Assembly (NCBI RefSeq): GCF_000257665.1
Contig: NZ_AJKR01000001.1
Coordinates: forward strand, 62,001-126,000
Direction of reading: 5' to 3'
Source: Candidatus Aquiluna sp. IMCC13023
GTDB lineage: Bacteria > Actinomycetota > Actinomycetes > Actinomycetales > Microbacteriaceae
Length of the DNA stretch: 64,000 bases
The notes below the pieces were generated by a model. That model was not told the DNA's origin and ran no database searches. It saw nothing but the letters and a program-made list of their open reading frames with translations. A program made the translations under genes and the position numbers. This document shows, piece after piece, positions 10,528 through 53,510 of this stretch. Positions within the stretch are counted from its first letter, which is position 1. Every line of letters starts with the position of its first letter.

Positions 10528-10535
10528 TTGAGAAC

Positions 10536-10624
10536 GACTCCTCGTGTGGCGTCACCTTGGCTAAATCCCCCAGGATCGAAAGATAGCAAGGGTAACTGAG
10601 CTCTGATGGGTGCACGGGGGGTCC
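10536..10624 (+). ncRNA. ffs: Small signal recognition particle RNA (4.5S type)
   Basis: An unlabelled RNA gene of about 90 nt between tRNA-Ser and dnaX, its usual actinobacterial site. The hallmark CCCCCAGG...AGCAAGGGTAACTG lies at 10567-10597. The 5' arm GACTCCTCGTGTG pairs with the 3' arm TGCACGGGGGGTC, giving the long closing helix, and a T-run follows at 10625-10630 as terminator. The Ffh-binding core is intact in the asymmetric loop (AGCA side), but the apical loop reads ATC-GAAA-GAT, a GAAA tetraloop where the usual sequence is CCGGAAGG (GGAA). The small Alu-less bacterial form scaffolds Ffh-FtsY for membrane protein targeting. Strong call from motif, pairing and synteny. Confidence 0.9.
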
Positions 10625-10630
10625 TTTTTT
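10625..10630 (+). terminator. T-run ending the SRP RNA
   Basis: Six thymines directly follow the GC-rich closing helix of the SRP RNA, so the helix itself serves as the terminator hairpin. Confidence 0.6.
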
Positions 10631-51250: not shown

Positions 51251-52540
51251 TTACGCCCAGTTGGCGTCAATTACACTCGGGTTTTCAGGGTTGCGGTCCT
51301 GAGAGCCCCAAGGCTGCTGGTATTCAGTGGACATTAGGTCCAAGAACAACTTGGCGTCGAATTCTTCGGGTCCACGAACTCCAGTGGCCTTCCAGTCACC
51401 TCGCGAAAGTAGCTCTAGAGCAACTACCGGAACCAAGGCGGTCTGCCAGACCACGGCTTGAGCGTTGTAGTTTTTGCCAGTCCAGCTGGTGTCTGCCACG
51501 TGGTAGAGGTAGGTAGCTCTTGGCTTACCATCGAGGCCCTTACCTGTAACCAAGGTTCCTGCACAGGTCATACCGGTCATCGAATCAACCAGGGAAGCTG
51601 GGTCGGGAAGTACTGCAGCCACTAGATCTCTTGGGGCAACTTCGACTCGACCGGATTTGGATCTGACCGAAACCGGCTCAGTCTTGTCGAGACCAAGAGC
51701 GTGCAGGGTCTGCAAGACGCCGATGAACTCAGTGCCAAGGCCGTACTTGAAGCGAACCTTTTGAGCATCCATGGTGCGGGGCAACATGTTTACTTCTTCG
51801 TGCTCAACGTTTACGCACTCGATTGGTCCGATGCCTCCTGGGAACTCGAACATTGCTGGCTCGCTAAATGGTTCGGTTGTGAACCAGCCGCGATCTTTCT
51901 CCCAGATCAGTGGAGGGTTCAAGCACTCTTCGATGACGGTCCAGATCGAGAACGATGGGGCGAAAATCTCTTCACCCTGCTCATTCTTCACAACTAAGTT
52001 GCCACCATCCAAGATGCAAATTTCATCAACTTCACTGAAGAGGTGATCCGCTGCGTAGCGCGCGAAAATGTTAGAAATACCTGGCTCTGCTCCGGTTCCG
52101 ATTAGAGCCAGTAGGCCGGCTTTTTCAAACTCAGCGTGCTTGTCGTATTGCCAATCACCTAGTTTTTCGGCTGGGGTGTTGAACGGGTCTGTCTTGTGAA
52201 CGTGGCTCAAGCTCATCGCCATGTCCATGTAGTTCACGCCTGCCTTTAGAGCTCCGTCAAAGATGCTCTGGACAAACTTGGGCTCGACCGCGTTCATGAT
52301 GTGAGTTGCGCCGACTTCCTTGGCCAATGCGGCCACCTGGTCTGCGTCACTGGCATCAATCTGTGCAGTTTGGAACTTGTCTGCAGCTTCCGGTGAGTGC
52401 TCTTTTACCCAAGCAACGCTATTTTCAGCACGTTGAATGTCGTAGTCAGAGACGATTAGTTTTTCAAAGAAATTACGATCGGCAGAGATCTTGACGATTG
52501 CATCGCCAACACCACCTGCCCCTATGAGCAAGATACGCAC
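51251..52540 (-). CDS. Saccharopine dehydrogenase family protein
   Basis: A 429-residue NAD(P)-binding oxidoreductase. ILLIGAGGVGDAIVKISA (3-20) is the dinucleotide fold; VNYMDMAMSLSHVH and GTGAEPGISNIFARYAA are the LYS9-type middle motifs; VYHVADTSWTGKNYNAQ-like segment (LYHVADTSWTGKNY) appears near the end. The family includes saccharopine and carboxynorspermidine dehydrogenases. GTG start at 52540. It stands alone behind a structured RNA leader (52594-52659). Exact reaction unknown; polyamine or lysine-type chemistry is an inference. Confidence 0.85.
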   Translation of the reverse strand: MRILLIGAGGVGDAIVKISADRNFFEKLIVSDYDIQRAENSVAWVKEHSPEAADKFQTAQIDASDADQVAALAKEVGATHIMNAVEPKFVQSIFDGALKAGVNYMDMAMSLSHVHKTDPFNTPAEKLGDWQYDKHAEFEKAGLLALIGTGAEPGISNIFARYAADHLFSEVDEICILDGGNLVVKNEQGEEIFAPSFSIWTVIEECLNPPLIWEKDRGWFTTEPFSEPAMFEFPGGIGPIECVNVEHEEVNMLPRTMDAQKVRFKYGLGTEFIGVLQTLHALGLDKTEPVSVRSKSGRVEVAPRDLVAAVLPDPASLVDSMTGMTCAGTLVTGKGLDGKPRATYLYHVADTSWTGKNYNAQAVVWQTALVPVVALELLSRGDWKATGVRGPEEFDAKLFLDLMSTEYQQPWGSQDRNPENPSVIDANWA

Positions 52541-52593
52541 GGATTTTCACAACCAAACATGACCGATTCGAAGATTCGGGCCCAGTCCTTGCC

Positions 52594-52659
52594 CTCATTC
52601 ACCGGTAGGCGCAAGCCTCTGTGGCGTCACTGCTAGTAACTGCGCCTTCACCTAATGAA
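52594..52659 (-). ncRNA. Three-way-junction RNA leader upstream of the saccharopine-like gene (riboswitch candidate)
   Basis: Read on the minus strand, an outer stem TTCATT/AATGAG (52654-52659 with 52594-52599) and GGT/ACC lead to stem AGGCGCA/TGCGCCT (52641-52647 with 52607-52613). That stem holds two hairpins with no spare bases: GTTAC-TAGCA-GTGAC and GCC-ACAGA-GGC. The result is a tightly packed three-way junction, 54 nt before the GTG of the downstream gene. TTCATTAGGTGA resembles the start of the M-box (Mg2+) riboswitch P1, but the interior is much shorter. No standard family fits with certainty. Confidence 0.6.
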
Positions 52660-52715
52660 CTACGTTCCTAATTATGGCGCTTGCTCTGAAAATAAGCGAC
52701 TTTGATCAAAACTTT

Positions 52716-53510
52716 CTAAGCAAGCTGGCGAATTGGTATCACTAGTGGCGTCTTGCCGACCGGATCATCGATCACGCGAGCCAAAATCCTAAATGCATCA
52801 GCCAAGTTGTTTGGGGTTATGACCTCGTGTGGGGTGCCCTGCGCAACTATCGAGCCGTCCTTGAGGATAACGATGTGATCTGCAAATCGGGCCGCAAGGT
52901 TTAGGTCGTGAATCACAGCAACGACTGTCATCCCGCGTTCGCGCTTCAAAGAAGACAAAAGATTCATAACCTGAAGCTGGTGACTGTAGTCAAGGGAGTT
53001 AGTGGGTTCATCCAGTAGCAGCACTGCAGGGTTTTTCACCAGCGCTGCAGCTATCACGGCACATTGTCGGTAACCCGATGAGAGCTCTCCTACTTTTTTG
53101 TCTCTGACTCCACTAAGTGAGGTTCGCTCCAGAAGAGTTTCGATTTCTTCTTTGAGCCTTGGAGACACTCGTGAGATTTGGCGGGCTGCAGTTGCCGATC
53201 TTGCTACCAAATCAAAAACAGATTCCTGATTCCTAGCCGCCGGGATTGCGGCAAGAAACCCAATGCTTTGGTTTATCTCAGCCTTTGTGAGTGCAGTGAT
53301 TGAGATGCCGTCCAGCAGCACAGCCCCGCTTGCGGCTGGGATTTTTCGAGCCAAAGCCTTCAGTAGCGAAGTCTTTCCGGCACCATTCGGTCCGATAATT
53401 GCCGTGACAGAACCCTTACTAATTTCTAGGTCAAGGTTTCGGATCACCTGGTCAGCGGAGTACCCAGCACTTAGTGCCTGCGCGGCCAACTTCGACTCTG
53501 GTTTATACAT
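52716..53510 (-). CDS. Orphan siderophore/hemin-type ABC ATPase
   Basis: A 264-residue FecE/FepC/HmuV-like ATPase. Walker A GPNGAGKTSLLKAL, Walker B VLLLDEPTNSLDYSHQ, and D-loop/H-loop AVIHDLNLAARFAD are intact; the signature reads LSSGYRQ rather than LSGGQRQ. The family imports iron-siderophore, heme or cobalamin with permease and binding protein, yet neither is adjacent: the neighbours are glycerol kinase and the saccharopine-like gene. It may serve a distant transporter. Confidence 0.82.
   Translation of the reverse strand: MYKPESKLAAQALSAGYSADQVIRNLDLEISKGSVTAIIGPNGAGKTSLLKALARKIPAASGAVLLDGISITALTKAEINQSIGFLAAIPAARNQESVFDLVARSATAARQISRVSPRLKEEIETLLERTSLSGVRDKKVGELSSGYRQCAVIAAALVKNPAVLLLDEPTNSLDYSHQLQVMNLLSSLKRERGMTVVAVIHDLNLAARFADHIVILKDGSIVAQGTPHEVITPNNLADAFRILARVIDDPVGKTPLVIPIRQLA

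Follow-up and report, generated by a model that had tools for sequence, protein, structure and literature searches.

The window analysed here is a 64,000-nucleotide stretch of the genome of Candidatus Aquiluna sp. IMCC13023 (contig NZ_AJKR01000001.1, positions 62,001 to 126,000). Within it, a gap separates an ABC-transporter ATPase gene (52716-53510) from a gene for a 429-aa protein (51251-52540), both on the minus strand. An earlier note had placed a compact three-way junction at 52594-52659 of that strand, and a re-reading of the sequence bears this out in letters, strand and position: AGGCGCA/TGCGCCT, GTTAC-TAGCA-GTGAC and GCC-ACAGA-GGC are all found as described, and the single unpaired junction base is T52614. 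The junction is the 5' half of a larger leader of about 120 nt, which runs from the predicted transcription start to the start codon. The upstream neighbour (52716-53510, minus strand) is a FecE-like ABC ATPase gene. Elsewhere in the window, a bacterial small SRP RNA lies at 10533-10629 on the plus strand, near a tRNA-Ser on the other strand. The enzyme gene, the promoter-like element and the parts of the 5' domain are as follows.

51251-52540, minus strand: saccharopine-dehydrogenase-like or carboxyspermidine-dehydrogenase-like gene, 429 aa, GTG start (PF16653, PF03435)
52671-52676, minus strand: -10-like hexamer CATAAT, which puts the likely start of transcription at the foot of P1
52654-52660, minus strand: P1 5' strand GUUCAUU; partner 52597-52603, with two-sided changes in relatives
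52650-52652, minus strand: P1b 5' strand GGU; the pairs in relatives are GGU:ACC, AAU:AUU, CGU:ACG, AGU:ACU and GAU:AUC
52648-52649, minus strand: GA bulge after the P1b 5' strand, invariant in all 16 aligned rows
52641-52647, minus strand: P2 5' strand AGGCGCA; partner 52607-52613
52626-52640, minus strand: P3 hairpin GUUAC-UAGCA-GUGAC, in which an A-U pair becomes G-C, a compensatory change seen on two separate branches
52615-52625, minus strand: P4 hairpin GCC-ACAGA-GGC, its closing pair changed from GC to AU in 3 of 14 distinct rows
52607-52613, minus strand: P2 3' strand UGCGCCU, pairing with the P2 5' strand
52604-52606, minus strand: P1b 3' strand ACC, pairing with GGU 52652-52650
52597-52603, minus strand: P1 3' strand GGUGAAU, pairing with the P1 5' strand

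The -10-like box reads CATAAT or CATACT in 15 of 16 aligned loci and AATAAT in one, always 7-10 nt ahead of the G of GUUC. Placed from this box alone, transcription likely starts near the foot of P1; a simple sigma-70 scan that requires a -35 box found no -35/-10 pair. The conserved stretch spans the interval from the -10-like box to 3-6 nt before the start codon. A terminator search over 52500-52800 found none, which favours control at translation. A structure that begins where the transcript is predicted to start would also suit a constitutive structured 5' UTR or stability element, one that protects the transcript or enhances translation with no regulation at all, and stabilising 5' stem-loops likewise sit at transcript 5' ends. 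Such an element, however, would need neither invariant pseudoknot loops nor a conserved block reaching up to the start codon (both described below), and we consider it improbable.

How much of the case for an RNA can be drawn from folding energy? By itself, the 70-nt element folds at -26.8 kcal/mol; its shuffles average -17.7 (z -3.3), with 1 in 200 doing as well, and the opposite strand scores z -1.6. The whole 122-nt leader folds no better than its shuffles (z -0.9), and three homologous leaders give z scores of -0.6, -1.1 and -0.8. Because the whole-leader scores are weak, the case for an RNA rests on comparison and not on folding energy.

The enzyme gene is present in 52 of the 98 genomes in which the protein was sought, and occurs across 34 of the 67 genera sampled. 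For the 30 best hits the locus was retrieved, and in 29 of these the upstream DNA was read (L008 lies at a contig end). The element stands directly before the start codon in 14 of 14 own-genus loci and is missing from all 15 orthologues of other genera; conservation upstream of orthologous genes, on which the earlier note had staked its proposal, holds within the organism's own genus only. A covariance model built from the 14 own-genus loci (R1) finds the RNA in 15 of 22 genomes of the genus, including 13 of 13 high-quality ones, with one copy each that is always immediately upstream of the enzyme gene. As for the seven genus genomes that lack it, the gene is cut at a contig end in two (G004 and G019) and no gene was found in five. 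A looser R1 search for secondary copies within the genus returned 12 weak matches, at most 16.7 bits and with E values of at least 0.19.

Outside the genus, the RNA is absent from the sampled genera. With stricter filters, by which weak relatives could be lost, R1 matched nothing beyond the genus in 398 genomes of the family (85 genera), nor in 396 genomes of the order and 396 of the phylum (the order and phylum samples overlap). At E<=10 it found nothing in the other-genus loci L016-L030. With filters off, three relatives with small genomes, among them the L030 genome, gave only 10 matches in their upstream regions, none above 6.1 bits. An exact-pattern search of a contig collection returned 65 loci, 12 of them real R1 matches; 11 of these, L067 included, were kept out of the alignment described below (A3) as already represented, and L060 was added. 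Two further loci, with E values of 0.11 and 0.74 over 36 and 35 bases, were taken as chance, the span including the search pattern itself, and the remaining 51 yielded nothing at E<=1. In viral contigs, a search with one spaced pattern, its gap fixed at one length, gave 0 matches.

Among 10 representatives, identity is 77% in the leader and 50% in the 70 nt upstream of it; in the first 300 codons of the enzyme gene, codon-aligned, it reaches 81%, 88% and 48% at codon positions 1, 2 and 3. All 16 genus loci share the order ATPase, RNA, enzyme, and so the association of RNA and enzyme counts as one inherited arrangement and not as independent events. The ATPase lies beside the enzyme gene in 0 of 15 other-genus loci (1.5 kb flanks), and the leader may have arrived with a rearrangement close to the root of the genus. 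In one locus of the genus (L108, G003:C2:592938-594225), the gene behind the RNA is broken into two frames and the leader itself is intact. Several of the L016-L030 orthologues show, by eye, a TAGCGT-like box up to about 10 nt before the ATG and look leaderless, unlike the 120-nt leader here.

The pairing of the 5' domain was judged on two alignments: A1, made with MAFFT before any structure was used, and A3, which was fitted to the covariance model and contains 16 sequences, 14 of them distinct. Covariation counts on A3 span P1, P1b, P2, P3, P4 and the two stems of a pseudoknot described below, S1 and S2, for 34 pairs in all. In A3, 99.2% of the cells pair, compared to 31-42% for slid structures, and two-sided changes occur at 8 pairs versus 3.3 when shuffled; none of 500 shuffles reached 8. 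The corresponding values for A1 are 98.5% versus 32-43%, and 7 two-sided pairs versus 1.9 when shuffled; one of five measures is unexceptional in A1, since its count of further pair types was equalled by 44 of 500 shuffles. Relatedness can inflate covariation counts, and a tree-based null was therefore applied, in which the changes of each column were redistributed on a tree of the enzyme protein sequences. Only 4 of 543 cells are broken, against a mean of 6.0% (sd 1.6%), and 0 of 2000 simulations were as low; this null is a simple purpose-made version and not R-scape, and it counts identical rows. Changes on both sides of a pair fall on a total of 11 branches across seven pairs, and pair 10:65 ends up broken after one such event. 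The covariation whose absence would, by the earlier note, have refuted its proposal is thus present in P1-P4, and these compensatory changes support the pairing of the three-way junction.

P2 shows one compensatory change, GC to AU, in L104. Pairing is lost in four cells, as a G.A mismatch at one P2 pair (L108 and L110), as U.U at one P1 pair (L105) and at the middle pair of P4 (L109). The P3 loop varies among relatives in both length and sequence. The outer helix needed correction: in place of the TTCATT/AATGAG pairing first proposed, GUUCAUU (52660-52654) pairs with GGUGAAU (52603-52597) and GGU (52652-52650) with ACC (52606-52604), with a GA bulge. We prefer this register, GUUCAYY:RGUGAAU, because relatives keep pairing there, as GUUCCCC:GGGGAAU, GUUCGUU:AACGGAU and GUUUGCU:AGUGAAC. 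Many of the changes pass through G-U pairs, intermediates that preserve the symmetry of an RNA but not of DNA, which makes a DNA-binding inverted repeat unlikely.

The pattern of change also bears on the idea that a translated uORF of 17-18 codons, starting at RUGAAGGC, attenuates or couples translation of the enzyme gene. In 10 of 16 rows its frame ends at one shared alignment position, but in the other 6 it is lost: the stop comes earlier in L110 and later in L105, L111, L112 and L114, and the frame runs on in L109. Moreover, leader indels do not come in multiples of three and the substitutions respect base pairing, no SD is seen by eye before RUGAAGGC, and the terminator search over 52500-52800 revealed nothing that could serve attenuation. 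There is a precedent in the ilvB-II motif of Corynebacterium, in which a single metabolic gene of an actinobacterium likewise has a leader conserved at genus level. The motif was initially read as a structured RNA until a uORF accounted for it, but each of its representatives keeps the frame, as opposed to 10 of 16 here (PMC10272879). We regard a uORF as very improbable.

Is this RNA already known? No Rfam 15 family matched the region at gathering score. At E<=10, the sole match near the leader is mir-315 (E 7.4) at 52668-52736, which lies entirely upstream of it, and nine homologous loci searched at E<=5 gave three Rfam matches, a tRNA and two below gathering score, none overlapping the RNA. 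The resemblance of the outer sequence to the M-box (Mg2+) riboswitch, remarked upon in the earlier note, finds no counterpart in these searches of the leader and nine homologous loci. It is a superficial likeness over one short stretch, that of TTCATTAGGTGA to the M-box P1, and the P1 register behind it is not the conserved one. The Aquiluna RNA is also smaller than the M-box and its junction is different. A degenerate M-box, or any other riboswitch known to Rfam, is hardly credible given cmscan results without a match over the RNA. Like the candidate RNAs of intergenic screens, this one is structured, conserved, bacterial, intergenic and so far without a ligand; the accessible main texts of three such reports do not contain the terms saccharopine, Microbacter-, Aquiluna, Rhodoluna, carboxynorspermidine or spermidine (PMC6429828, PMC8632094, PMC11109978). 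Nor was a description of the RNA found in the open-licence literature searched, including the accessible parts of PMC6106888 and PMC5301498.

The 3' half of the leader begins with UGAGGGCAARGACUGGGCCC, a nearly invariant stretch following P1, and contains the elements listed here.

52591-52594, minus strand: putative pseudoknot stem S1, 5' strand GGGC, invariant; partner 52578-52581
52588-52590 and 52582, minus strand: putative pseudoknot loops L1 (AAG) and L2 (G52582)
52583-52587, minus strand: putative pseudoknot stem S2, 5' strand GACUG, invariant in 16 of 16
52578-52581, minus strand: S1 3' strand, GCCC in 15 of 16 rows and GCCU (G-U kept) in one
52566-52577, minus strand: putative pseudoknot loop L3, 9-13 nt in relatives and ending in AAAU or GAAU; length and sequence vary
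52561-52565, minus strand: S2 3' strand CGGUC, invariant in 16 of 16
52551-52568, minus strand: competing hairpin AAUCGG (52568-52563):UUGGUU (52556-52551), proposed by RNAalifold and mutually exclusive with S2
52546-52554, minus strand: invariant GGUUGUGAA, a probable weak ribosome-binding site, in 16 of 16 homologues and 3-6 nt before the start codon

The GGGC/GCCC pairing that had been noticed in the gap is confirmed, being invariant save for one G-C to G-U change, and is now assigned to a probable H-type pseudoknot, formed by GGGC:GCCC and GACUG:CGGUC ahead of GGUUGUGAA. In 16 of 16 leaders, S1 (4 bp) and S2 (5 bp) interleave with loops of 3 nt (L1), 1 nt (L2) and 9-13 nt (L3), sizes that sterically allow such a fold by rule of thumb (no 3D model). 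Of its nine pairs, 8 never vary and one shows G-C to G-U. Because S1 and S2 are nearly invariant, covariation does not test the pseudoknot, and we infer it from geometry and invariance.

RNAalifold retains GGGC:GCCC but, in place of S2, joins AAUCGG to YYGGUU. Two of the six pairs of this competing hairpin vary, on one side only and both from G-U to G-C, with no two-sided change. This hairpin is weak, with -1.8 to -4.0 kcal/mol across the five leaders (of 16) in which its energy was calculated, and only some of those five show it extending into L3; for the same leaders, S2 as a plain hairpin has -3.9 to -4.2 kcal/mol and S1 has -6.7. The mutual exclusion of S2 and AAUCGG:YYGGUU, together with the overlap of YYGGUU and GGUUGUGAA, suggests a switch.

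GGUUGUGAA is the only anti-SD-like stretch noted in the leader. The earlier note had reported no Shine-Dalgarno before the GTG, which is correct insofar as a full SD is absent, but GGUUGUGA makes an interrupted match to the anti-SD worth -7.2 to -8.3 kcal/mol. For reference, duplexes with the anti-SD, taken from a 16S 3' end located by pattern in this genome, have -16.1 kcal/mol for a full SD, -7.8 for the AAGGAG core and -5.6 for AAAGGA. Pairing of the ribosome-binding site with the P1 5' strand was also considered, and fails by eye in L104.

How might these parts work together? In the proposed scheme, the 5' domain consists of P1, P1b, the GA bulge and P2, on top of which P3 and P4 form a tight three-way junction, and would be followed by the H-type pseudoknot (S1, GGGC:GCCC; S2, GACUG:CGGUC). 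The 3' strand of S2 could alternatively pair, through AAUCGG, with YYGGUU and thereby cover part of GGUUGUGAA. A ligand bound to the junction or bulge and the pseudoknot would hold S2 and leave GGUUGUGAA free, the ON state; without ligand, the AAUCGG:YYGGUU hairpin would hide GGUUGUGAA, the OFF state. Action at translation is the most likely mode; the switch, the direction in which it works and any ligand are inferences, as is the pseudoknot. Small pseudoknot riboswitches that act on translation include the preQ1 classes and SAM-II. The Aquiluna leader resembles them in having an H-type pseudoknot near the start codon, a short leader and no terminator found; it differs in that the pseudoknot would follow a separate three-way-junction domain, the SD-like element lies outside the pseudoknot, and no Rfam family matches.

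The only Pfam domains found in the downstream enzyme are the two saccharopine-dehydrogenase domains (PF03435, PF16653). The best NCBIfam model is carboxynorspermidine synthase NF043000 (179 bits, under the 800-bit cut-off), and the best solved structures are 4ina, 4rl6 and 8deb, the last being a carboxyspermidine dehydrogenase. For the carboxyspermidine dehydrogenase of B. fragilis, an HEE (His-Glu-Glu) triad is described as central and Glu188 is also named (PMC10413350); on alignment to 8deb, both the triad and the Glu188 equivalent are present here. The only PF02784 protein found in this genome, the kind expected of a partner decarboxylase, is LysA, and neither spermidine synthase (PF01564) nor OKR decarboxylase (PF01276) has a match. 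The enzyme thus looks carboxyspermidine-dehydrogenase-like, yet the three polyamine gene families tested yield no partner here. The spermidine riboswitch is a variant of the SAM-I aptamer that terminates transcription and controls polyamine-synthesis genes, which recalls the carboxyspermidine-dehydrogenase-like gene here (PMC10853860). The Aquiluna leader, in contrast, has no SAM-family match and no terminator found in 52500-52800.

The earlier note had offered a riboswitch or a protein-bound leader. What stands is a conserved, structured leader of the enzyme gene, with covariation and conservation before orthologues; the type of regulator fits as a candidate only. An RNA-binding protein, perhaps the enzyme itself, might occupy the junction or pseudoknot and control translation with no small-molecule ligand. 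The identical structural evidence fits such a protein, the RNA sits on a single gene, and autoregulatory leaders commonly have compact junctions and a narrow range. However, the Pfam domains of the enzyme are the two saccharopine-dehydrogenase domains and no others, and the strict conservation of L1, L2 and the pseudoknot would seem more like a ligand pocket; we judge a protein-bound leader unlikely. For a riboswitch speak the covarying helices within a conserved structured domain (P1-P4; the pseudoknot stems are nearly invariant) and a place in the 5' leader of a metabolic gene in 16 of 16 A3 loci, with the start taken from the -10-like box. A point against is that riboswitch classes known to date usually extend beyond a single genus. 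On balance, we lean somewhat toward a riboswitch.

That this is a real, conserved cis-regulatory RNA without an Rfam 15 match we hold with high confidence. With a lesser confidence, though rather better than even, we favour a new cis-regulatory leader that is restricted to Aquiluna and controls translation of the enzyme gene by the mechanism given above, most likely as a metabolite-sensing riboswitch. More tentatively, and at slightly below even confidence, it may represent a new class of riboswitch, so far seen only in a single genus of streamlined aquatic actinobacteria. Its aptamer would combine the three-way junction with the H-type pseudoknot and would sense the substrate or product of the enzyme.

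Small-genome water bacteria have thus supplied a well-supported structured regulatory RNA outside Rfam 15. It is fixed at one locus in one genus, and 15 orthologues of the gene in other genera are read without it. A ligand of this RNA would provide a handle on an enzyme that occurs in 34 of 67 sampled genera and has no substrate assigned in the libraries searched. If the RNA is indeed a new riboswitch class, it could reveal the function of the enzyme in an organism that lacks the classical polyamine genes tested.
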